A stretch of DNA of 51,306 nucleotides. Origin: Deltaproteobacteria bacterium 13_1_40CM_4_68_19. GTDB lineage: Bacteria > Myxococcota > Myxococcia > Myxococcales > 40CM-4-68-19. The stretch spans positions 1 through 51,306 of the forward strand of contig MNFJ01000040.1 of assembly GCA_001918155.1 (NCBI GenBank). The letters run 5' to 3'. A program made the position numbers and the translations under genes. Positions 2,862-46,194 of the stretch are shown piece after piece; within the stretch, counting starts at the first letter, position 1, and every line of letters begins with the position of its first letter. The notes beneath the pieces are model-generated. The model did not search any database. It saw only the letters and a list, made by a program, of their open reading frames with translations, and was not told where the DNA came from.

Positions 2862-3263
2862 ATGATCGGCGTGGTCGTCGCGACGCACGGGAAGCTGGCG
2901 GAGGAGATGATCCGCACCGCCGAGACGGTCGTGGGCCACCTGGACCAGGTGGTCCCGGTGAGCGTGGTCGCCGCGGCGCCGGACATGCGAGCAATCCTGA
3001 AGGCCGCCATCCAACGGGTCGACCAGGGAGATGGCGTGCTGCTTCTCACCGATCTGCTAGGCGGCTCTCCCACCAATCTCTGCGTCTCCTTCCTCACGGA
3101 ACGGAAGGTGGAGGTCGTCACCGGGATCAACCTCCCGATGCTTCTGAAGCTCTCCGGCCTGCGCGCCAGCGGGAAGCCGATCGGGCAGGTCGCGCACGAT
3201 CTCGCCGAGGCGGGCCAGCGCTCCATCGGTCACGTGAGCGAGTCGTTGCGGAGGATGGGTTGA
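2862..3263 (+). CDS. PTS mannose/fructose/sorbose-family EIIA component
   Basis: MIGVVVATHGKLAEEMIRTAE (phosphorylatable His in THG), LLTDLLGGSPTNL; followed by IIB, IIC, IID. Confidence 0.92.
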   Translation: MIGVVVATHGKLAEEMIRTAETVVGHLDQVVPVSVVAAAPDMRAILKAAIQRVDQGDGVLLLTDLLGGSPTNLCVSFLTERKVEVVTGINLPMLLKLSGLRASGKPIGQVAHDLAEAGQRSIGHVSESLRRMG

Positions 3264-32640: not shown

Positions 32641-33672
32641 TCAGCGCGCCGTTGCGCCACCGCCCAGCTCCTCCCAGAGGGCGACGATCCCGGCGCAGCG
32701 CGCGGTCAGGATCGCCGCCAGCGCGGCAAAACCGGTGAGCGAGACGGCGCTGGCGAACCAGAGCCGCGAGAACGCATCGAGCCCAAGGTCGCATTCGCGC
32801 GAGAGCCGGCGGAACGCAGGCTCCGCGGCCGGCGCGTCCGGACAGAGCTCTTCGACCCACTGCGAGGGCACGCCGCGACGGAGCGATGCCCAGCGCACCG
32901 GTTGCCAGGTGCCGACCGCGCCGAGCAGCGCCTCGGCGTCCTGCGCCAGGCTTCCGGCAGCGGCCTCGTCGCGGAACCGGCGGAGCGCGGGCGCGACCCG
33001 CAGCGCTTGCGAGAGGCCTGCATAGAAGGTGCGGAAGGCGGGCTCCGCCGCGGCGGCGGGATTTTCCGCCAGCAGGCGCGCGAGCCATTCTTCGTGCGCG
33101 AGGGAAAACGCCTCACCGCGCGCGTCCATCTCGCGGAGCAGGTCCTCGGTGCGGGCAGCCGGCAGCGCTCCGGCAGCCGGATCTTCGGGAAGGAGCACGA
33201 GTGGAGCCGCCGCGGCGAGCCCCACCAGCCGCAAGAGCGAAGCATGAGCCGCGACCACCGCTGCCGCGCCCCGGGCCTGGGCCGACTCCCGGCCGAAGGC
33301 GACGAGCCGTTCTGCCTCCGCGTGCGCCCGACGCTTCAGCTCGCCTCGCTGCTGCGTGCGCTCCGGGCGCGCGCCGATGCCGTCCAGCACTGATGGACCC
33401 GGCGGAAGGGGAGGACGAGGGGCGAGCCCGCGCGCGAGCACCACGTCCCAGCCCGGCGCGCCGTCCCATGCATAGACGTCGCTGTCCTGCGCCAGCAGCT
33501 CCAGCTCGGCGAGGGCGCCGTCGGCAGGCTCGTGCCGCGTGAGCGGTAGCGCGGCGGAGACGGCGTCCAGGATCAGATCGGCGACTTTGAGCGACGTCGC
33601 GTCCCGCTCGGCGAACTCGGGGCGGAACGCGCCGAGGAGGGCGCGGGCGAAGATCTCCTCCTCCGCGCTCAT
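32641..33672 (-). CDS. Hypothetical protein (Ala/Arg-rich)
   Basis: 3' part of ORF 32641..35859; ATG at 33672 overlapping the upstream VIT-family stop (ATGA). Confidence 0.6.
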   Translation of the reverse strand: MSAEEEIFARALLGAFRPEFAERDATSLKVADLILDAVSAALPLTRHEPADGALAELELLAQDSDVYAWDGAPGWDVVLARGLAPRPPLPPGPSVLDGIGARPERTQQRGELKRRAHAEAERLVAFGRESAQARGAAAVVAAHASLLRLVGLAAAAPLVLLPEDPAAGALPAARTEDLLREMDARGEAFSLAHEEWLARLLAENPAAAAEPAFRTFYAGLSQALRVAPALRRFRDEAAAGSLAQDAEALLGAVGTWQPVRWASLRRGVPSQWVEELCPDAPAAEPAFRRLSRECDLGLDAFSRLWFASAVSLTGFAALAAILTARCAGIVALWEELGGGATAR

Positions 33673-34403
33673 CCCGCGATCAGCCTTCCGGCCAGGAACG
33701 TGGCCGCCGCGGCGATCGCTCCCACCAACACGGTCTCCAGGCCGCTGCGGAGCCAGGAGCGGCCGGTCATCCGCGTCTTCGCCGCGCCGGCCGCGAACAG
33801 GGCCGCGAGCGTGCAGCCGACGGAGAGGGCGAACGCGGTGGGCACCGCGACAGGAAGAGCGTAGGGAATGACCGGGAACGCCGCTCCCAGCGCGTAGGCA
33901 GCCGCGACCACCAGCCCGGAGCGGAGCGGCGCTCCGGTCGGCGCCGCGCTCAAGCCGAGCTCTTCGGTCATCATGGTGTCCACCCAGAACACCGGGTCCG
34001 CGGTCACGTGTTGCACCATCTGATCGAGGGCCTGCCCGCGGAACCCCTTGCGGGCGAAGATGGTGCGGACCTCCTTGCGCTCCTCGTCGGGGAACTCGCG
34101 AACCTCGCGCTCTTCCCGTTCCCGCTCGCTGAGGATGAACTCCTGCTCGCTCTTCACCGCGAGAAAGGCGCCCAGGCCCATCGCGATGGTGCCTCCGATC
34201 AGCTCCGCCAGGCCGGCGAGGAGGACGATGCGGGTGGAGAAGGTGGCGCCGTGGACGCCGGAGACGACCGCGAACGCGGCCACCATCCCGTCGTTCGCGC
34301 CGAACACCAAGTCGCGCAGCGAACGTCCGCCCGGGATGTGGGCCGCCTCCGTGTGGGTGGCACCGTCCTCGCGTGTACGGATGAAGTGCTTGGGCAGCCG
34401 CAT
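33669..34403 (-). CDS. VIT1/CCC1-family iron/manganese transporter
   Basis: LRDLVFGANDGMVAAFAVVSGVHGA, EREREEREVREFPDEERKEVRTIF cytosolic acidic helix. Confidence 0.92.
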   Translation of the reverse strand: MRLPKHFIRTREDGATHTEAAHIPGGRSLRDLVFGANDGMVAAFAVVSGVHGATFSTRIVLLAGLAELIGGTIAMGLGAFLAVKSEQEFILSEREREEREVREFPDEERKEVRTIFARKGFRGQALDQMVQHVTADPVFWVDTMMTEELGLSAAPTGAPLRSGLVVAAAYALGAAFPVIPYALPVAVPTAFALSVGCTLAALFAAGAAKTRMTGRSWLRSGLETVLVGAIAAAATFLAGRLIAG

Positions 34404-34439
34404 GTGTGCAGCGCGACGACTTGCCACGGTTCGAGGGGA

Positions 34440-34476: not shown

Positions 34477-36411
34477 ATGTTGAGAATGATTCTCAGTCTC
34501 ACTCTCGCCGCGGCTGCGGCGCGCGCGCAGCCGGGCGACACGCAACCGCTGCGCCGCGTGGTCGCGCTGCTCGACTACGTCCGCGGCGACTACGCGCGGG
34601 CCGTGGGCGAGCACGGGGAAGTGCTTTCGCAGGCGGAACATTCCGAACAGATCGGATTCGTCGAAGACGCGGCCCGCGAGCTTCGCGCAGATGTGAACGG
34701 CAGCGGCGAGGACCTTGCGAAGCGGCTCGACGCCCTCCGGCAGAGGGTGGCGGAGCGCGCACCGCCGGCGGAGGTGGCGCAGAGTGCGCAGGCGGTGCGC
34801 GACGAGATCGTGCAGCGTTTCAACGTGGTCCTGTTGCCCCTGCGGGCTCCCGATGTCCGCCGCGGCGCGCAGGTCTACGCGCAAGCGTGCGCGGCTTGCC
34901 ACGGGATCGACGGGCATCCCAACCCTGCCCTCGGGCTCGAGACCCGGCCCCCGGACTTCCACTCGGAGGCAGGGCCGCTGACCCCGCAGCGCATCTTCAG
35001 CGCGGCGACGTACGGCGTCCCCAAGACGGCGATGCCCGCGTTCGACTCCGGGCTGACCGACGAAGAGCGCTGGGACGTCGCCTTCTTCATCCTCTCGCTC
35101 GCGCACCCGGCTGGGTCGCCGCGGGGTCTCGAACTGGCGCGCGCCGCGCTGGTGCCCACCCGATACGCGGACCTGGCGGCCCTTTCGGACGACGACCTGC
35201 GCCGGCGGCTCGCAGCGGCGGGCCTCGCCGCGGGCGAGCAGGAGGAAGCGCTCGCGGCGCTGCGCGGCGGGCCCTTCGCCGAGGATGTCCGGCGAAACGC
35301 CCAGGGCCTCGCGCAAGCCCGGGCAGCCGTGCAGAGCGCCGTCCTGCTCGCCCGCAACGGCGACACGGCGGGCGCGCGCAGGGCGCTCATCTCCGCCTAT
35401 CTCGATCACTTCGAACCTCACGAGGCCGGCCTGCGCGTCCGCGAGGGCCCGATCGTCCAGGAGGTCGAGGCCGCGTTCCTGGCGCTGCGGGCCTCGATCG
35501 ACGGTCGCGACGCGCAGCTCGAAGCGCGGGCCGCGCGGCTCGACGGCCTGCTGGAGAAGGCGGACGCACGCTCCGCGGGCGGCGGGCTGGTCGCGTTCGT
35601 GGGGGCGCTGGCCATCGCGCTGCGGGAGGGAGTGGAAGCGGCGCTGTTGGTCGCGGCGATGCTCGCGCTCTTGCGCAAGGCCGGCCGCGAGCGCGACGCC
35701 GACGCGGTGCACGTCGGCTGGGTCTCGGCGTCGCTGGCCGGAGCAGCGACCTGGTGGGCGTCGGGGATGCTGCTCGTCCACCTCTCGGGCGCTAGCCGCG
35801 AGTTGGCGGAGGGCGTGTTCCAGCTGGTCACCGCCGCGCTGCTCCTGTACGCCAGCCACTGGCTCCTGGCAGCGCTCTCCGCGAAGCGGCTGGTTTCATT
35901 TGTCTCGACCCGGACGATGGCGGCGGGCAGCGCGGCGGTGATCCTCGGGCTGAGCTTCATGGTCGTTTACCGCGAGATGTTCGAGGCGGTGCTCTTCTTC
36001 CGCGGACTGCTCCTCGAGGTGCCCGGGACGGGAGCAGCCGTGGCGGCCGGCGCGGCGGCGGGACTTCTCGCGCTGGTCGGGCTGGTCGCCGCCTTCCAGC
36101 GGGTGGGCCGCAGATTGCGTCCGCGCCCGCTGCTGCTGTCTTGTGGGATCCTCCTCTGCGCGCTCGCCGTGCTGATGGTCGGTCACGGCGTGCGGTCGCT
36201 GCAGATCCTCGGCGCGGTCCCGCTCACGATCTGGGGCGCCTTCCAGGTGCCCGCGCTCGGCCTCTACGCGACGCGCGAAGGACTGTGCGCGCAGGCCCTG
36301 GTGTTGCTGGCGCTGGCCGGCTCGGCTCTCTGGACCGCCCTTCGCCGCGACCGCCACGACGGCGACGCCCCCGACCGCCACCCCTCGCCCGCGACCTCCA
36401 CCGCCCGGTAA
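34477..36411 (+). CDS. Cytochrome c - FTR1 iron permease fusion
   Basis: CAACHGIDGHPNP (CxxCH); GALAIALREGVEAALLVAAML and VVYREMFEAVLFF (RExxE motifs); C-terminal TM segments. Confidence 0.9.
   Translation: MLRMILSLTLAAAAARAQPGDTQPLRRVVALLDYVRGDYARAVGEHGEVLSQAEHSEQIGFVEDAARELRADVNGSGEDLAKRLDALRQRVAERAPPAEVAQSAQAVRDEIVQRFNVVLLPLRAPDVRRGAQVYAQACAACHGIDGHPNPALGLETRPPDFHSEAGPLTPQRIFSAATYGVPKTAMPAFDSGLTDEERWDVAFFILSLAHPAGSPRGLELARAALVPTRYADLAALSDDDLRRRLAAAGLAAGEQEEALAALRGGPFAEDVRRNAQGLAQARAAVQSAVLLARNGDTAGARRALISAYLDHFEPHEAGLRVREGPIVQEVEAAFLALRASIDGRDAQLEARAARLDGLLEKADARSAGGGLVAFVGALAIALREGVEAALLVAAMLALLRKAGRERDADAVHVGWVSASLAGAATWWASGMLLVHLSGASRELAEGVFQLVTAALLLYASHWLLAALSAKRLVSFVSTRTMAAGSAAVILGLSFMVVYREMFEAVLFFRGLLLEVPGTGAAVAAGAAAGLLALVGLVAAFQRVGRRLRPRPLLLSCGILLCALAVLMVGHGVRSLQILGAVPLTIWGAFQVPALGLYATREGLCAQALVLLALAGSALWTALRRDRHDGDAPDRHPSPATSTAR
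34481..34495. promoter_or_regulatory. Fur-box-like perfect 7-1-7 palindrome TGAGAAT-G-ATTCTCA
   Basis: Direct reading; matches the TGATAATnATTATCA-type Fur consensus at 13 of 14 informative positions per symmetric pair class (G/C replacing T/A once per arm). Confidence 0.7.
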
Positions 36412-38297: not shown

Positions 38298-38777
38298 ATG
38301 ACACATGCCATGCTGCTGGCCCTCGCGGCCGCGGTGGTGCCCGGCGAGAAGGCGCCGGCGTTCTCCATGGAGACGACGAGCGGGAAGAAGACCCTCGACG
38401 ACTACAAGGGGCAGACGCTGGTCCTGGCCTTCTTCGTCAAGGCGTTCACCGGAGGCTGAACGAAGGAGATGTCGGCGTTCCGCGATGTGCAGTCGAAGTT
38501 CGCCGACAAGAACGCCCAGGTCCTGGGCGTCTCGATGGACGACCTGGATACGCAGAAGCGCTTCGCGCAGAGTCTGAACCTGCCGTTCCCGCTCGCCGCC
38601 GACCCGAAGGGGACGACCGCGGAGGCATACGGCGTCAAGAACGGAGACCATCCGGATCGGGTCACGTTCGTGATCGGTCCCGACGGCAAGGTGCTGAAGC
38701 GCGTGGAGGGCCGGGACGCGCTCGACCCCAACCCCGCCCTCGAGGCGTGTCCCCTGCACCACGGGAAGAAGGTTTAA
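38298..38777 (+). CDS. Probable selenocysteine-containing peroxiredoxin (in-frame TGA at 38457-38459)
   Basis: Reading through TGA: MTHAMLLALAAAVVPGEKAPAFSMETTSGKKTLDDYKGQTLVLAFFVKAFTGG[U]TKEMSAFRDVQSKFADKNAQVLGVSMDDLDTQKRFAQSLNLPFPLAADPKGTTAEAYGV...; TGA sits exactly at the peroxidatic Cys of the (T)xxCTKE motif. Confidence 0.87.
38470..38508 (+). promoter_or_regulatory. Candidate bacterial SECIS hairpin
   Basis: TGTCGGCG (38470-38477) pairs with CGCCGACA (38501-38508), inner CGA/TCG with loop TGTGCAG; begins 10 nt after the TGA. Confidence 0.6.
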
Positions 38778-39628: not shown

Positions 39629-42600
39629 TCACACGGCCAGCAGCGCGGCGCGCGCGGGAAGCCCGGTCGCGGCCGTGATCGCGCGGCAGTACAGCTGCAG
39701 CTGGGCCGCGTACTGCGGGTGCGAATCCGGGCGCGCATCGGTCTTGAAGTCCACGATCACCCACTCTCCGCCCTCGCGGAAGGCGAGATCCACCACGCCC
39801 TCGAGCAGCGTGCCGTCTTCGAGCCTGTGCACCACCGGCTCTTCGCGGCGGCAATCCACCGCAGCGGCAGCGCGCCGCAGCAACGGATGCGCCAGCGCCG
39901 CCAACGCCGCGCGGGCGGCAGCGTCCACTTCCTCCGGCGTGGCGCCGACCAGGCGCGCCTGCGCTCGCGCCACGCCACCGACCGCCTCGGGTCCGGCGCG
40001 CAGATCCGTCTCGGCGAGCACGGCGTGCACCAGGCTGCCAAATCGCCGGCCGCGCGGCCGCGAGAAGTCGCGGATCTCCACCGCCGCGAGCTCCACCGGC
40101 TCGCCGGCGACCGCCGGGAGCGAGCGCGCCGTCGCCGTATCGACTCGCAGCGAGGGACGGGCACCCTGCTCGATGGCGGCGCTCCTGCGCTGCTGCCATC
40201 GCTGGTGCGCCTGCGCCGTTGGCCGGGCGGCGCCCTCGTCCACGAGCAGCAAGTCGCGCTCGCGCAGCCAGTTCTCGACTTCGCGCTCGAGCTCGAGCAC
40301 CCGCGGGTCCCACCAGACCACCTCGTGCGCTCCGGACTGCGGCCGGTGAAGCCCCGGTGGTACGGCGAGCACGCCGAACATGCCCTCCGGCCGATCGAGC
40401 ACCGCTTCCTTCCCGAAGGGCGGACATCCCGGCGCCGCGCCCGGCGGTCCTCGCGTCAGCGGAGCCGGATAGATCGCGGCGTTGAGCGGCTCGAGCCATG
40501 CGTCCGGTTCCTCATCGGCGATGGCCGGGACGACGAGCAGATCGCGCGCTCGGGTGGCAGCGACGTAAGCCACGCGCACTCCCTCCTCGCGGTCGCGCTG
40601 CAAAAGCGCCGGCGCGTCGTCCAGCAACTCGGCTGGAGCGCAGCTCGCGAGCGGCATCGCCCAGACCTTGCGTTCGGGATCCACCAGGCGCGAGGGCTTC
40701 CGCGGCGCAGGGGGCGCGCAGGGATCGCAGAGGACCACCACCGGGAACTCCAGCCCCTTCGCCTTGTGGACGCTCATGATGCGGACGCCTTCGGTCCCTT
40801 CCTCGACCACGGCCGCTTCCGCCGCCTCTCCGCGCTCGGCGTCGGAGGCGAGCCGGTCCACGAAGGCGCGGAAGCTGCTCGCGCCGGCGGCCTCGAATCG
40901 CCGGGCCAGCTCCAGCACGCGCAGCACGTTTCCCAGGGCCTGCTCTCCGGCTGGCCGCATGGCGATGCCGGCATGCGCCCGCGTCGCATCGAGCAGGCGC
41001 GAGAGCGTCTCCGCGATCGGCCTGCGGTTGCGGCGCAGATGCAGCTCGCCGAGGAGCGCCAGGGCGTCGAAGACCTCCGCTTCCGCCGCGCCCGCCGCTT
41101 CGGGTCGCTTGCGCAACGGATGCAGCCGCCCGTGGCGCTCGCGGAAGAGCACCAGCGCGTCGTCGCCGAGAGCGAAGAGCGGTCCCTTGAGCGCCGCGAA
41201 TACCGCCAGCTCGTCGTCGGGCGACTCGATGGCGGTGGCGGCCACGCGCATCGCCAGCACCTCCTCGCGCGCGTGGTACGAGCGTCCGCCGACGAGCACG
41301 TGCGGGATCCTCCGCGCCTCGAGAGCGCGGACGTATGCGCGAGTGAGGTCGCCCTCGTAGTTGCGCATGCGCTTGAAGAGAAGGCAGACGTGACGAGCCT
41401 CCACCGGGACCGGCTCCGCCCGATCCCGCTCGCTCACCCGCCAGCCGCTCTTCGTCACCAGCCAGTCGACGAGTGCCGCCACCGCGTCCGGATACGATTG
41501 CTCGATGCGGAAGTTCGCGACCTTCTCGCGCTCGCCATAGATCTTCGGGGCAGGCAGCGCAACCACGGCAGGTTGTCCTTCGAGGTTTCCGCGGAACGGG
41601 TCGAGGGGGACGTAGCTCGCCTGCGTCCCGCCCTGCATCCTCCCTGAAAATCCCGCGTTCACCGCCTGCTGGATGGCAGGAACGGATCGGAAGCTGGTGG
41701 TGAGATGCAGGAGTTCTGCGCCGCCGGCGAGCAAGAGCTGCTTCACGTCCTCGTACAGGGCGATGTCGGCGCGGCGGAACCGGTAGATCGACTGCTTCGG
41801 ATCGCCGACGACGAACAGCTTCCCCGGCGCGGGGCGCGAGTTCCTCCAGCGCGACTCCGCCGGGTCCGCCGAGGCGATCAACAGGAGGATCTCGGCCTGC
41901 AGCGGGTCGGTGTCCTGGAACTCGTCGACCAGGACGTGCGTGAAGCGGCGCGAGAGCTCCGTGCGCACCGAGGCGTCGTCTCGGACCAGGTCCCGGGCCC
42001 GCACGAGCAGATCGAGGAAGTCGAGACATCCGGCGCCGCGCTTGAGGTCCTCGTAAGCGTCGCAGAGCGTTCGCAGCTCCTCGCGCAGGCAGGCGGCGAG
42101 ATCGGCGTCGCAGCGATCGAGGAACGCCTCCAGCTCCGCCTTCACCGCATCGCGGCGGGCGAGGACCGACGCCTTGTCCAGGTCCTTCGCGAACCACTTT
42201 CCGCCTCCTCGCCAGTTCCACAGGCGCCGGCGGCAGAGCTCGTGAAGCTCCGCTTCGAGGCCGTCCAGGTCGCGGGCGCGCATGCTCTCGCGGCGCCGGA
42301 GCTCCGCCACCCAGCGCCCGATGCCCATGACCGACTGCGCCGCCCAGTCGTCCGGACGCTGCGCTCTCGCGGCCAGTTCGCCGATCTCCGAGAGGCGCGC
42401 GACGATCTGCTGCAGCCCGGCCTCACGGTCGAACGCGTCCCGGCGCCAGGCGCCCGAGAAGTCGCGATGCTCGGAAAGGTCCCGCCCCGCCTGCCGGAGC
42501 AGCTCGCGCGGCGCCGGCTCCCCGGGGCGCAGCTTGCGCCGCAGCAGCCTGCGCACCCCTTCCGGCGGATCGGCGATGGCCCGTTGGAACCAGGCGTCGA

Positions 42601-43021
42601 ACGCCTGATCGAACAGGCGGTCCTGCTCTTCGCCGGCGGCGATCTCGAAGACGGGATCGACCCGCGCCTCGATCGGCCGTTCCCGCAACAGGTCGGCGCA
42701 GAAGGAGTGGATGGTGCCGATGGGCGCCGCCTCCAGCCGTTCCAGCGCTCCGGTCAAGCGATCGCGCTCCTCGGAGCCGGCGCCGCTGCGCGCCGTCTCC
42801 AGCTCGGAGCGCAAGCGCAGCTTCATCTCGCCGGCGGCCAGGTCGGTGAAGGTCACCGAAAGGATCCGGTCGAGCGTGGTTCGGCCGCTGCGCACCAGGG
42901 CGACGATGCGCGCCACCAGCTCGGTCGTCTTCCCGGTGCCGGCGGCGGCCTCCACGATCAGCGACGCGTCGAGATCGCCCCGGATGCGATCGCGGGTGGC
43001 CTGGTCGGCGAGCGCCCTCAT
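39629..43021 (-). CDS. addA: UvrD/AddA-like helicase-nuclease
   Basis: VEAAAGTGKTTELVARIV Walker A, VDEFQDTDPLQAEIL, SVHKAKGLEFPVVVL, C-terminal RecB-nuclease WVIVDFKTD. Confidence 0.92.
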   Translation of the reverse strand: MRALADQATRDRIRGDLDASLIVEAAAGTGKTTELVARIVALVRSGRTTLDRILSVTFTDLAAGEMKLRLRSELETARSGAGSEERDRLTGALERLEAAPIGTIHSFCADLLRERPIEARVDPVFEIAAGEEQDRLFDQAFDAWFQRAIADPPEGVRRLLRRKLRPGEPAPRELLRQAGRDLSEHRDFSGAWRRDAFDREAGLQQIVARLSEIGELAARAQRPDDWAAQSVMGIGRWVAELRRRESMRARDLDGLEAELHELCRRRLWNWRGGGKWFAKDLDKASVLARRDAVKAELEAFLDRCDADLAACLREELRTLCDAYEDLKRGAGCLDFLDLLVRARDLVRDDASVRTELSRRFTHVLVDEFQDTDPLQAEILLLIASADPAESRWRNSRPAPGKLFVVGDPKQSIYRFRRADIALYEDVKQLLLAGGAELLHLTTSFRSVPAIQQAVNAGFSGRMQGGTQASYVPLDPFRGNLEGQPAVVALPAPKIYGEREKVANFRIEQSYPDAVAALVDWLVTKSGWRVSERDRAEPVPVEARHVCLLFKRMRNYEGDLTRAYVRALEARRIPHVLVGGRSYHAREEVLAMRVAATAIESPDDELAVFAALKGPLFALGDDALVLFRERHGRLHPLRKRPEAAGAAEAEVFDALALLGELHLRRNRRPIAETLSRLLDATRAHAGIAMRPAGEQALGNVLRVLELARRFEAAGASSFRAFVDRLASDAERGEAAEAAVVEEGTEGVRIMSVHKAKGLEFPVVVLCDPCAPPAPRKPSRLVDPERKVWAMPLASCAPAELLDDAPALLQRDREEGVRVAYVAATRARDLLVVPAIADEEPDAWLEPLNAAIYPAPLTRGPPGAAPGCPPFGKEAVLDRPEGMFGVLAVPPGLHRPQSGAHEVVWWDPRVLELEREVENWLRERDLLLVDEGAARPTAQAHQRWQQRRSAAIEQGARPSLRVDTATARSLPAVAGEPVELAAVEIRDFSRPRGRRFGSLVHAVLAETDLRAGPEAVGGVARAQARLVGATPEEVDAAARAALAALAHPLLRRAAAAVDCRREEPVVHRLEDGTLLEGVVDLAFREGGEWVIVDFKTDARPDSHPQYAAQLQLYCRAITAATGLPARAALLAV

Positions 43022-46000
43022 GGCATCCCCCGCAGCTGCACCAGCGGCGCGAGCGCGTCGGCCGGCTTGCGCCGGGTCCGGGCCCATTCCGACGGTCCGC
43101 ACACCGCGAGGTAGTCGCAGCGGCCGCACTCGCGCTCGTCCCGAGGAGCCGCCGGAAGAAAACCCTGCGCGATGGCATCGCCGATGGTCTTCGCCAGCTG
43201 CTGCACGCTGCCGCGCGCGGTGGCGTCGAGGGCCACGGGAACCGAGGTGAAGTCGCCCCCGTACGTGCAGTAGTAGAGCCGGCCGTCCTCCACGCGCGTC
43301 CCCGGGAACAGCTTCTCCAGCGCGAGGGCGTAGAGCGCGGGCTGCAGCGTGGCGCCGCCGCCGATCACGGTCCCCTTCTGCGCCCAGGCTTTGCCGGTCT
43401 TGTGATCGGTCGCGCGCAGCGCGCCGTCGGGCGCTCGCTCGACCAGATCGATCGAGCCGCGCAACCGGATGCCCTCGTCCAGCAGGACCGGCTCCCGGCT
43501 GCTGTGCGGGTCGCGCTGCGACATCTCGGGCAGCCCGAACGAGAGCTCGAAGCGCCACGGCGCCCACCCCGGCTCCTCGCTCATCCGGCGTAGCCACTCG
43601 CGCAGGTCGATCTTCACGCCAGCGATGCAGTCCTTCCAGACGCGCTCGATGGCGGGCGCCAGATCGTCCTCCCACCGCCGTGCCACCCGATCCACCACCG
43701 CCTCCAGCCGCAGCTGCGCGGCGGGAAGGTCCCTGATGGGCACTTCGCCCGCTTCCGACAGCTCCCGGAGCAGCTCGTACTGCGCTTCGTGGATGAGCGA
43801 GCCGCGCGAGAGCGGATCGATCTCGTCGATCCCTTCCGGGACCTCGCGCGGCGCGAGCCGGTGGATGGCCTGGAGGACGAACTTGTAAGGACAAGCCGCG
43901 TAGTTCTGCAGCGCCGTCGGCGAATAGGATCGCGCGACCGGCTGATGCGCCTGCATCGCCTGGAGAGCGGCTGCTGTGGGCTGGACGAGCCCGTCCGCGG
44001 GCGTCCAGCGGCGCAGTCCGCGCCGCGCCCGGCTCCTCAGGGCGCGGCTGAGGTGCGGATTCGCCGCCAGCAGATACGCCGCCGTCCCTTTGCTCGCCTT
44101 CGGGTCCTGCAGCGCGCTCGCCAGAAGCGCCAGATCGTGCTCGGCCTCGTCGATGGCGTCCGCCGCCTCCCGGGGAGCGGGCCAGCCGGCCCGGGTCCGC
44201 AGCGCCTGCTCTGCCCGCCGGGCGAGGTCAGCGAACCCGGGCAACGTGCCTTCGGCGGCGCGAACGACTTCCAGGCCATAGAACGACGGAACGCGGGCAC
44301 GCCCTTGCGAGAGATCGATCCGCGGCCAGGAGAGAACGAGCTTGCCGCGGGCGGCGCCGACCGCGAGCCTCAGCGCGAGCCGCTCGGCGGCGATCCGATC
44401 CTCGGAGGTCTCCAACTCCGCCAGCGGACGCCGCTCCTCGTCGCGAAGCAGCGGATCTTCCATGACTTTCTGAGGGAAGAGCTTCTCCGCCAGGCCGGGT
44501 ACGAACACGCTGTCGAACGACAGCCCGCGCGCGGCGGCGACCGGCGCGATGAACACCTTCCCGTGGCGCTTGCCGGGCGGCGGTACGGAGAGCTCCGTGA
44601 GACGGCGCCCGAGGACCACGCGCACTTCGCCCAGGGAGACAGGGCCGACCGGTCCCATCGGGGCGAGCTCGGCCAGAAGCGACAGCACGCGCGCAGGCTC
44701 GCGGAGCGCGCGGGTGGCAAGGGCGGTGAGAGGGTCGATCCAGCCCGCCCAGGTCGCGCTCGCCGGCAGGGCAGCGAGAGCGTCCAGCAGCGGCAGCGCG
44801 AACTCGCGCAGCGCCGCCAGGTCGGCCAGCTCGCGCTCCATCCGCTGCGCTCTTGCTTCGTCTTCGGCGAAAGCGGCGAGCGTCGCGCGCAGCTGCGCTT
44901 CGAGCCCGTCCAGCCTGCGCTTCCAGCGCTGCCGGCCTCCGATCACGGCCGCGTCGATGAGGAGCTGCTCCCAGCGCCAGGGAGCGCGCAACGCTCCGGC
45001 GACGACCGGCGCGTCCAGGTCGGCCGGTGGTCCCGGCTCCGCCGCCGGAGCCGGCTCGGCGGCGGGTCGCGCCGTCAACTCCGAGTCAGGCGGTACCCAG
45101 CGATCTCCGGAAGGCGGCGCGTCCGGCGGCGCTCCGGACACCGCCTGCGGCACTTCGCCAAGGCTCAGGTACTCCGCGAACCTGCGCGCGGAAAGGCCGT
45201 CGGCAGCGCAGGCGAGCAGCGCGAGGAAGGCCCGCCCGGCGGGATTCGGCTGCTGCGTACCCGAGGCGAAATGGGCGGGGATGCCGGCGCGCGCGAAGGC
45301 CTCTTCGAGGAGCGGACGGTATTGGCCTGGCGCGCGGAGCAGGACCGCCATCCGGTCGAAGGGAATGCCGCGCTCCGCCTCGCGTCGGACCAGCCGCGCG
45401 ATCTCCACGCACTCCCGGCTCTCACCAGGCGCGGAGAGCAGAAGAACGTCGTCGCCCAAGGGCGGCATCGCGTCCGTTCCCTCCACGAACAGGCGCTGTT
45501 GCACGCGGGCGAGAGACGTCGTGGCGGGCTCCGCGAGCGGGCGCGCCGCGGTCCCGAGGGCGCGCGCGATGCGCACCGCATCGGCCGATGGGGCCACTGC
45601 GAGCACAGGCCCCCGCAACCGGGCGACGAACCGCTCTTCGAGCGTGGCGCGCAGGGGCAGATCGAGGAGCAGCGCGGGCAGATCGAGCAGCGGCGAGTCC
45701 GCTTCCAGCGCGAGCCGGAAGACGCCGGCGCGGTCGGCGAGCGCCGCCTGCCGGAGCTCGGCCTCGTACGCGTCGAGGACGCGACCGAGGTCGCCAACCG
45801 GCCGGGCTCCGGAGAGCCGCAGCTCCTGGATGGTGCGCGACAGGGCGCGGGGAAGGCCGGGCTGAGCGGCGACGGCATCGAGCTTTCCCAGGCGCCCGCG
45901 GAGCTGATGGACCACCCGCGCGCACACCGCTTCGACGCCGAGCGGCGACAGCGGCGAGAGGCCGCGCGCGGACATCGCTTGCGCCGCGACCGCAGCCGCG

Positions 46001-46194
46001 AGCCGGCCCAGCGTGAATCGCTGCCAGCCGAACGCGGCGCCCGCGGCGGTCGCCGCAGTCCGCACTACCTCCGCCGCGGCCTCCTGCGTGGCGCCGACCA
46101 CGAGCGCCCGCCCCGCCGGCCCGCGCTTGCGGAGCCATTCCCCGGCGAGCTCGAGCCTGCTCGACGCAGCTGCGGATGTGACCAGCTCCCTCAC
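43018..46194 (-). CDS. addB: AddB-like PD-(D/E)XK exonuclease subunit
   Basis: SPTALQNYAACPYKFVLQAIHRL ... RATDHKTGKAW ... ECGRCDYLAVCG (four-Cys Fe-S staple pattern); overlaps addA by 4 nt. Confidence 0.88.
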   Translation of the reverse strand: MRELVTSAAASSRLELAGEWLRKRGPAGRALVVGATQEAAAEVVRTAATAAGAAFGWQRFTLGRLAAAVAAQAMSARGLSPLSPLGVEAVCARVVHQLRGRLGKLDAVAAQPGLPRALSRTIQELRLSGARPVGDLGRVLDAYEAELRQAALADRAGVFRLALEADSPLLDLPALLLDLPLRATLEERFVARLRGPVLAVAPSADAVRIARALGTAARPLAEPATTSLARVQQRLFVEGTDAMPPLGDDVLLLSAPGESRECVEIARLVRREAERGIPFDRMAVLLRAPGQYRPLLEEAFARAGIPAHFASGTQQPNPAGRAFLALLACAADGLSARRFAEYLSLGEVPQAVSGAPPDAPPSGDRWVPPDSELTARPAAEPAPAAEPGPPADLDAPVVAGALRAPWRWEQLLIDAAVIGGRQRWKRRLDGLEAQLRATLAAFAEDEARAQRMERELADLAALREFALPLLDALAALPASATWAGWIDPLTALATRALREPARVLSLLAELAPMGPVGPVSLGEVRVVLGRRLTELSVPPPGKRHGKVFIAPVAAARGLSFDSVFVPGLAEKLFPQKVMEDPLLRDEERRPLAELETSEDRIAAERLALRLAVGAARGKLVLSWPRIDLSQGRARVPSFYGLEVVRAAEGTLPGFADLARRAEQALRTRAGWPAPREAADAIDEAEHDLALLASALQDPKASKGTAAYLLAANPHLSRALRSRARRGLRRWTPADGLVQPTAAALQAMQAHQPVARSYSPTALQNYAACPYKFVLQAIHRLAPREVPEGIDEIDPLSRGSLIHEAQYELLRELSEAGEVPIRDLPAAQLRLEAVVDRVARRWEDDLAPAIERVWKDCIAGVKIDLREWLRRMSEEPGWAPWRFELSFGLPEMSQRDPHSSREPVLLDEGIRLRGSIDLVERAPDGALRATDHKTGKAWAQKGTVIGGGATLQPALYALALEKLFPGTRVEDGRLYYCTYGGDFTSVPVALDATARGSVQQLAKTIGDAIAQGFLPAAPRDERECGRCDYLAVCGPSEWARTRRKPADALAPLVQLRGMP

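Follow-up and report, generated by a model that had tools for sequence, protein, structure and literature searches.

A peroxiredoxin frame split by TGA

The locus raises the question of whether a peroxiredoxin gene with a TGA in place of its active-site codon encodes a functional selenoprotein. The window, the whole stretch of 51,306 nucleotides analysed (Deltaproteobacteria bacterium 13_1_40CM_4_68_19, contig MNFJ01000040.1), carries on its forward strand a frame that starts at ATG 38298, runs 53 codons to TGA 38457-38459 and continues for 105 codons to TAA 38775-38777, with a TAG in frame 12 bases 5' of the ATG. The junction across the TGA reads LAFFVKAFTGG[U]TKEMSAFRD. The ORF caller's version of the gene is 38469-38777 (102 aa), and reading through the TGA gives this truncated gene back its active site. 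We consider it very probable that the gene codes for a functional Sec-containing peroxiredoxin of Bcp/PrxQ-AhpE-like fold. What is observed is an intact split frame, conservation of TGA or Cys at the site, the Sec machinery genes and a conserved hairpin. The features are the following.

38298..38777 (+): peroxiredoxin gene, coding for 159 residues if the TGA is counted as predicted Sec54 (translation, PF00578, AlphaFold2, Foldseek)
38298..38342 (+): hydrophobic N-terminus MTHAMLLALAAAVVP, a possible export signal (sequence, by eye)
38457..38459 (+): TGA in frame at the peroxidatic site (putative Sec54), where the alignments with Pfam, PDB and relatives place a Cys
38470..38508 (+): putative bSECIS hairpin, in which 38470-38477 pair with 38501-38508 as a lower stem of 8 bp, topped by an internal loop, a second (upper) stem and the apical loop GUGCA
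38658..38660 (+): codon of Arg121, which we take from general knowledge of the peroxiredoxin family to be the catalytic Arg (invariant column of alignment A2)
38748..38750 (+): codon of the C-terminal Cys151, candidate resolving residue, in the motif GxDAxDPxxAxxxC (90 of 90 subfamily proteins; invariant in A2)

The Pfam profile PF00578 (AhpC/TSA) matches the joined protein in a single stretch (residues 15-133, profile positions 1-122 of 124, E 1.5e-35). The separate halves match the consecutive profile positions 1-39 and 42-122, the TGA standing at the position of the missing Cys. The AlphaFold2 model of the read-through protein has a mean pLDDT of 92 and, used as a query, gives as best Foldseek matches peroxiredoxins of Bcp/AhpE type, 3drn and 5enu among them. 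The first-pass annotation had put the stop at the peroxidatic Cys, the peroxiredoxin N-terminus upstream of it and the rest of the fold downstream. Both placements are borne out, by the half-matches and by Cys-containing homologues in Pfam, PDB and among relatives whose Cys aligns to TGA 38457, as that annotation had suggested checking. Its coordinates (ATG 38298, 53 codons, TGA 38457-38459, end 38777) are exact to the base, and it was right that ORF calling truncates the gene and loses the active site. Of the in-frame TGAs in the window, 24 have at least 30 open codons of high GC3 on each side; among these, TGA 38457 alone had flanks recognised as one known protein, the peptides being judged by reading.

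Active site and proposed catalysis

The TxxU motif is present as FTGGU, with Thr51 at -3 from Sec54. Thr51, residue 54 and Arg121 are conserved in alignment A2. The classical PxxxTxxC motif reads VKAFTGGU, with Val47 for Pro; most relatives have Pro at this position, and several TGA forms besides the window gene have Val or Thr. We do not take Val47 as excluding a Sec-peroxiredoxin, because TxxU is what defines the family in the 2005 and 2006 papers, and the Thr, Arg and Sec positions are all conserved.

Exactly one Cys follows the active site in all 90 full-length subfamily proteins, Sec and Cys forms alike, and it lies near the C-terminus. In the mechanism that we propose, Sec54 would attack the peroxide to give a selenenic acid, Cys151 would resolve it as a selenenylsulfide, and a thioredoxin-like donor would recycle the enzyme, probably outside the cytoplasm. 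The high confidence expressed above covers the Sec peroxidase and not the resolving step, for which we lean modestly towards Cys151 on the strength of its conservation. The same Sec peroxidase could be of the 1-Cys (1-Sec) type, an external thiol resolving Sec54 and Cys151 having another role, a reading that competes only with the resolving step and that we regard as a serious possibility somewhat short of probable. The 1-Cys peroxiredoxin AhpE is among the fold matches, and the resolving Cys found at +5 in classical PrxQ is replaced by Ser59 in the window protein, which has the C-terminal Cys instead; however, Cys151 is the sole other Cys downstream of the active site and is invariant whether residue 54 is Sec or Cys, which speaks against such a separate role and for the preferred resolving one.

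TGA and Cys codons across relatives

After removal of three duplicates and of peroxiredoxins of other types, the subfamily genes retrieved from the class (n=92) have TGA at the site in 55 cases and TGC or TGT in 37, and no other codon. Elsewhere in the phylum, TGA is found in four members and TGC in two. The TGA is conserved within the genus and family of the window genome and is replaced elsewhere only by Cys codons. In a quick maximum-likelihood analysis that masked the site and included three outgroup rows, and in which many forks are weakly supported, TGA and Cys must have replaced one another at least 10 times in one class.

The orthologues of three genomes in which SelA was not detected (G007, G076, G053) carry TGC; G076 is a near-closed genome of 2 contigs, 100% complete. 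SelA also went undetected in two genomes with a TGA form: G049, which is 80% complete and has tRNA-Sec, and G124, which is 87% complete and in which tRNA-Sec was not found either. Cys forms are not limited to Sec-less genomes, many of their genomes retaining the Sec machinery. Sec and Cys forms stand side by side in close myxobacterial relatives, many with this machinery intact, and natural matched pairs such as L073 (TGT) beside L091 (TGA) make the long-standing question of why Sec is retained or lost testable. A plasmid search yielded only distant peroxiredoxins, below 60% identity.

Selenocysteine machinery

The window's own genome codes for SelA (398.7 bits), SelB (303.8 bits, joined) and SelD (363 bits). 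The search for Sec genes proposed by the first-pass annotation was thus answered in part: selA, selB and selD are there, and the tRNA-Sec gene selC was not found in the assembly, which is 74.8% complete. Four other genomes of the genus (G001, G004, G005, G006) have a tRNA-Sec with anticodon TCA. Across the 147 genomes of the class, tRNA-Sec is found in 120 and SelA in 130.

Several routes to selC were followed in the own genome. Its Rfam tRNA matches are ordinary tRNAs and not tRNA-Sec. A first anticodon-stem pattern matched only non-tRNA sequence and was discarded, and a second one, derived from the selC genes of the class, has no exact match. Synteny with the selC region of G004 recovered no selC. 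No selC lies on the selA and selD contigs or in the first 20 kb of the selB contig, 24 kb long, and an arrangement overlapping selB was not seen there. tRNA-Sec was likewise not found in G002 (97% complete) or G003. In the window's family, five genomes (G000, which is the window's own, G002, G003, G009 and G011) combine SelA and TGA peroxiredoxins with no detected tRNA-Sec, G002 and G009 being 97-98% complete. Since selC of G004 (L164) lies near repeated sequence, its loss in assembly is the likely cause in these five genomes; they may instead have a divergent Sec tRNA. G002 has a stretch (L196, about 3053-3138, that is G002:C103:104052-104137) 91% like the sequence adjacent to selC in G004, with no selC beside it, which may mark one end of a mobile element targeting selC.

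The selD gene (L024, G000:C135:3338-4267) has an in-frame TGA of its own, in the motif SGUACKL. Two further AhpC/TSA genes of the own genome have an active-site TGA. L005:2-175 (-) on G000:C95 codes for a Bcp-type peroxiredoxin (KADTPGUTLQGCGLRD), cut by the contig end, whose intact counterpart is L140 in G006. L006:1405-1971 (+) on G000:C157 codes for a Prx-like protein with the motif RGHWUPYC.

A putative SECIS hairpin

The apical loop GUGCA of the putative hairpin lies 27 nt from the UGA. Folding of the 54 nt from the TGA in the window gives a z of -2.39 against dinucleotide shuffles. Each of the six distinct TGA forms in the window's family takes up the same overall shape, and the family's Cys form (L046), which comes from a genome without SelA, lacks it. 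When codons are recoded synonymously from pooled usage, z lies between -1.4 and -3.5 for the six TGA forms (window gene -1.74, p 0.056); their combined z of -5.6 gives no probability since the sequences are related. Two pairs of the hairpin have changed on both sides, a level of covariation reached by 13 of 500 shuffles.

Other myxobacterial families have an 8-bp stem, GCGUACCG-GGAC-CGGUAYGC. At least 7 of its pairs are kept in 35 of 42 TGA forms versus 9 of 33 Cys forms (Fisher p 1e-6, uncorrected for kinship), and three sequences show compensatory exchanges of U-A for A-U. With the peptide held constant, the pairing Arg codon is CGG in 30 of 32 TGA forms versus 5 of 10 Cys forms; these hairpin comparisons all treat related sequences as independent. 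Over the 45 nt after the TGA, Sec and Cys forms do not differ in fold energy under synonymous shuffling, and a 51-nt span, chosen after the longer hairpin of the window gene had been seen, sets them apart only weakly (p 0.02). The hairpins of the window's family and of the other families both satisfy the bSECIS rule, which asks for a hairpin 16-37 nt after the UGA whose small apical loop has a G as its first or second base (PMC13188914).

Decoding of the TGA

We strongly infer that Sec is incorporated at UGA 38457, which would be decoded by SelB and tRNA-Sec with the aid of the SECIS hairpin just 3' of it. The first-pass annotation had called the gene a probable selenoprotein, and the TGA/Cys conservation, selA, selB and selD and the SECIS-like hairpin give that proposal strong support. 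It is very improbable that the TGA is read otherwise, as Cys or Trp by suppression, or that a shorter product is made from an internal start. The missing tRNA-Sec of the own assembly would fit the former and the existing ATG at 38469 the latter; yet the site holds only TGA or Cys codons, the genome keeps selA, selB and selD in a genus with tRNA-Sec (TCA), a start at 38469 would leave out the active site, and the upstream half is under purifying selection.

This selection is seen by comparison with a relative of 97% protein identity, which keeps the TGA with about 30 synonymous differences. dS and dN are 0.23 and 0.008 in the part 5' of the TGA and 0.37 and 0.015 in the part 3' of it; dN/dS is about 0.03-0.04 on either side, indicating purifying selection in both halves. 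A dead gene, its Cys codon recently turned into a nonsense codon, would explain why ORF callers truncate it, and TGA is one base from TGC or TGT. This reading is refuted by the conserved TGA and by purifying selection downstream, and is left with a minimal probability: species differing at synonymous sites share the TGA, the same codon is TGA in the 55 class genes counted above, and the Sec machinery is present in the genome. A sequencing or assembly error for TGC or TGT, the least credible explanation, is ruled out by independent assemblies of relatives, single-contig genomes of the class among them, with TGA at the same codon.

Relation to known peroxiredoxins

Sec-peroxiredoxins with TxxU are an established family (PMC1088965, PMC13188914), and Anaeromyxobacter dehalogenans was listed with three Prx selenoproteins in 2006 (PMC1794560). 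The latter proteins are compared here at family level, not by name as members of the window's branch. The window protein resembles the bacterial TxxU Sec-peroxiredoxins in its PF00578 fold, the TxxU at the peroxidatic site, the downstream stem-loop and the widespread Cys homologues. What sets its branch apart is that a Cys near the C-terminus, some 96-105 residues beyond Sec, is invariant and that some members have export or lipoprotein signals.

Bcp/PrxQ and AhpE-type proteins are closest by profile and fold, but the window protein scores below the Bcp/PrxQ cut-offs (68.8 of 140 bits for NF006960, 80.6 of 260 for NF053650) and about 60% of the branch genes compared have Sec, unlike Bcp/PrxQ/AhpE. 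PrxU (NF040737, peroxi_PrxU) is a peroxiredoxin homologous over residues 16-132 (E 2.6e-12); its model is longer (233 positions), and the 47 bits of the window protein fall short of its cut-off, 270. With the window protein as query, no model in NCBIfam reaches its cut-off. The Prx-like UxxC selenoproteins share PF00578 and the active-site TGA but have UxxC and not TxxU; L006 (HWUPYC) is of this kind and the window gene is not.

Judged by eye, the corresponding N-terminus is clearly of lipoprotein type in L046 and L256 and a signal peptide in L103, which makes export of the branch probable. Export of the window protein itself is less sure and only weakly suggested by an N-terminus that is hydrophobic with no charged n-region. 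Less described than the TxxU family is this branch, spread through myxobacteria: its C-terminal Cys is invariant, some members have export-type N-termini, no NCBIfam model matches above its cut-off, and Sec and Cys have been exchanged at least 10 times in one bacterial class. We put forward only tentatively the view of the whole as an unnamed, exported Myxococcota branch in which Sec or Cys54 pairs with the invariant C-terminal Cys and has switched at least 10 times in one class. If true, the resolving geometry would be C-terminal, unlike that of PrxQ, through a selenenylsulfide or disulfide, and the switching would include close relatives that keep the Sec machinery.

Genomic setting

The peroxiredoxin gene stands alone, flanked by a divergent PAS/GAF histidine kinase gene and a convergent PilZ gene. 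Elsewhere in the window, 34477-36411 (+) codes for a cytochrome c domain fused to an FTR1 iron permease, and a VIT-family gene (33672-34427, -) adjoins it divergently. Two large overlapping ORFs at 39629-46194 (-) resemble a RecBCD/AddAB-like repair pair: ORF 43021-46194 (-) has a PD-(D/E)XK nuclease domain and the ORF downstream of it (-) has, by eye, the look of a UvrD/AddA-type helicase.
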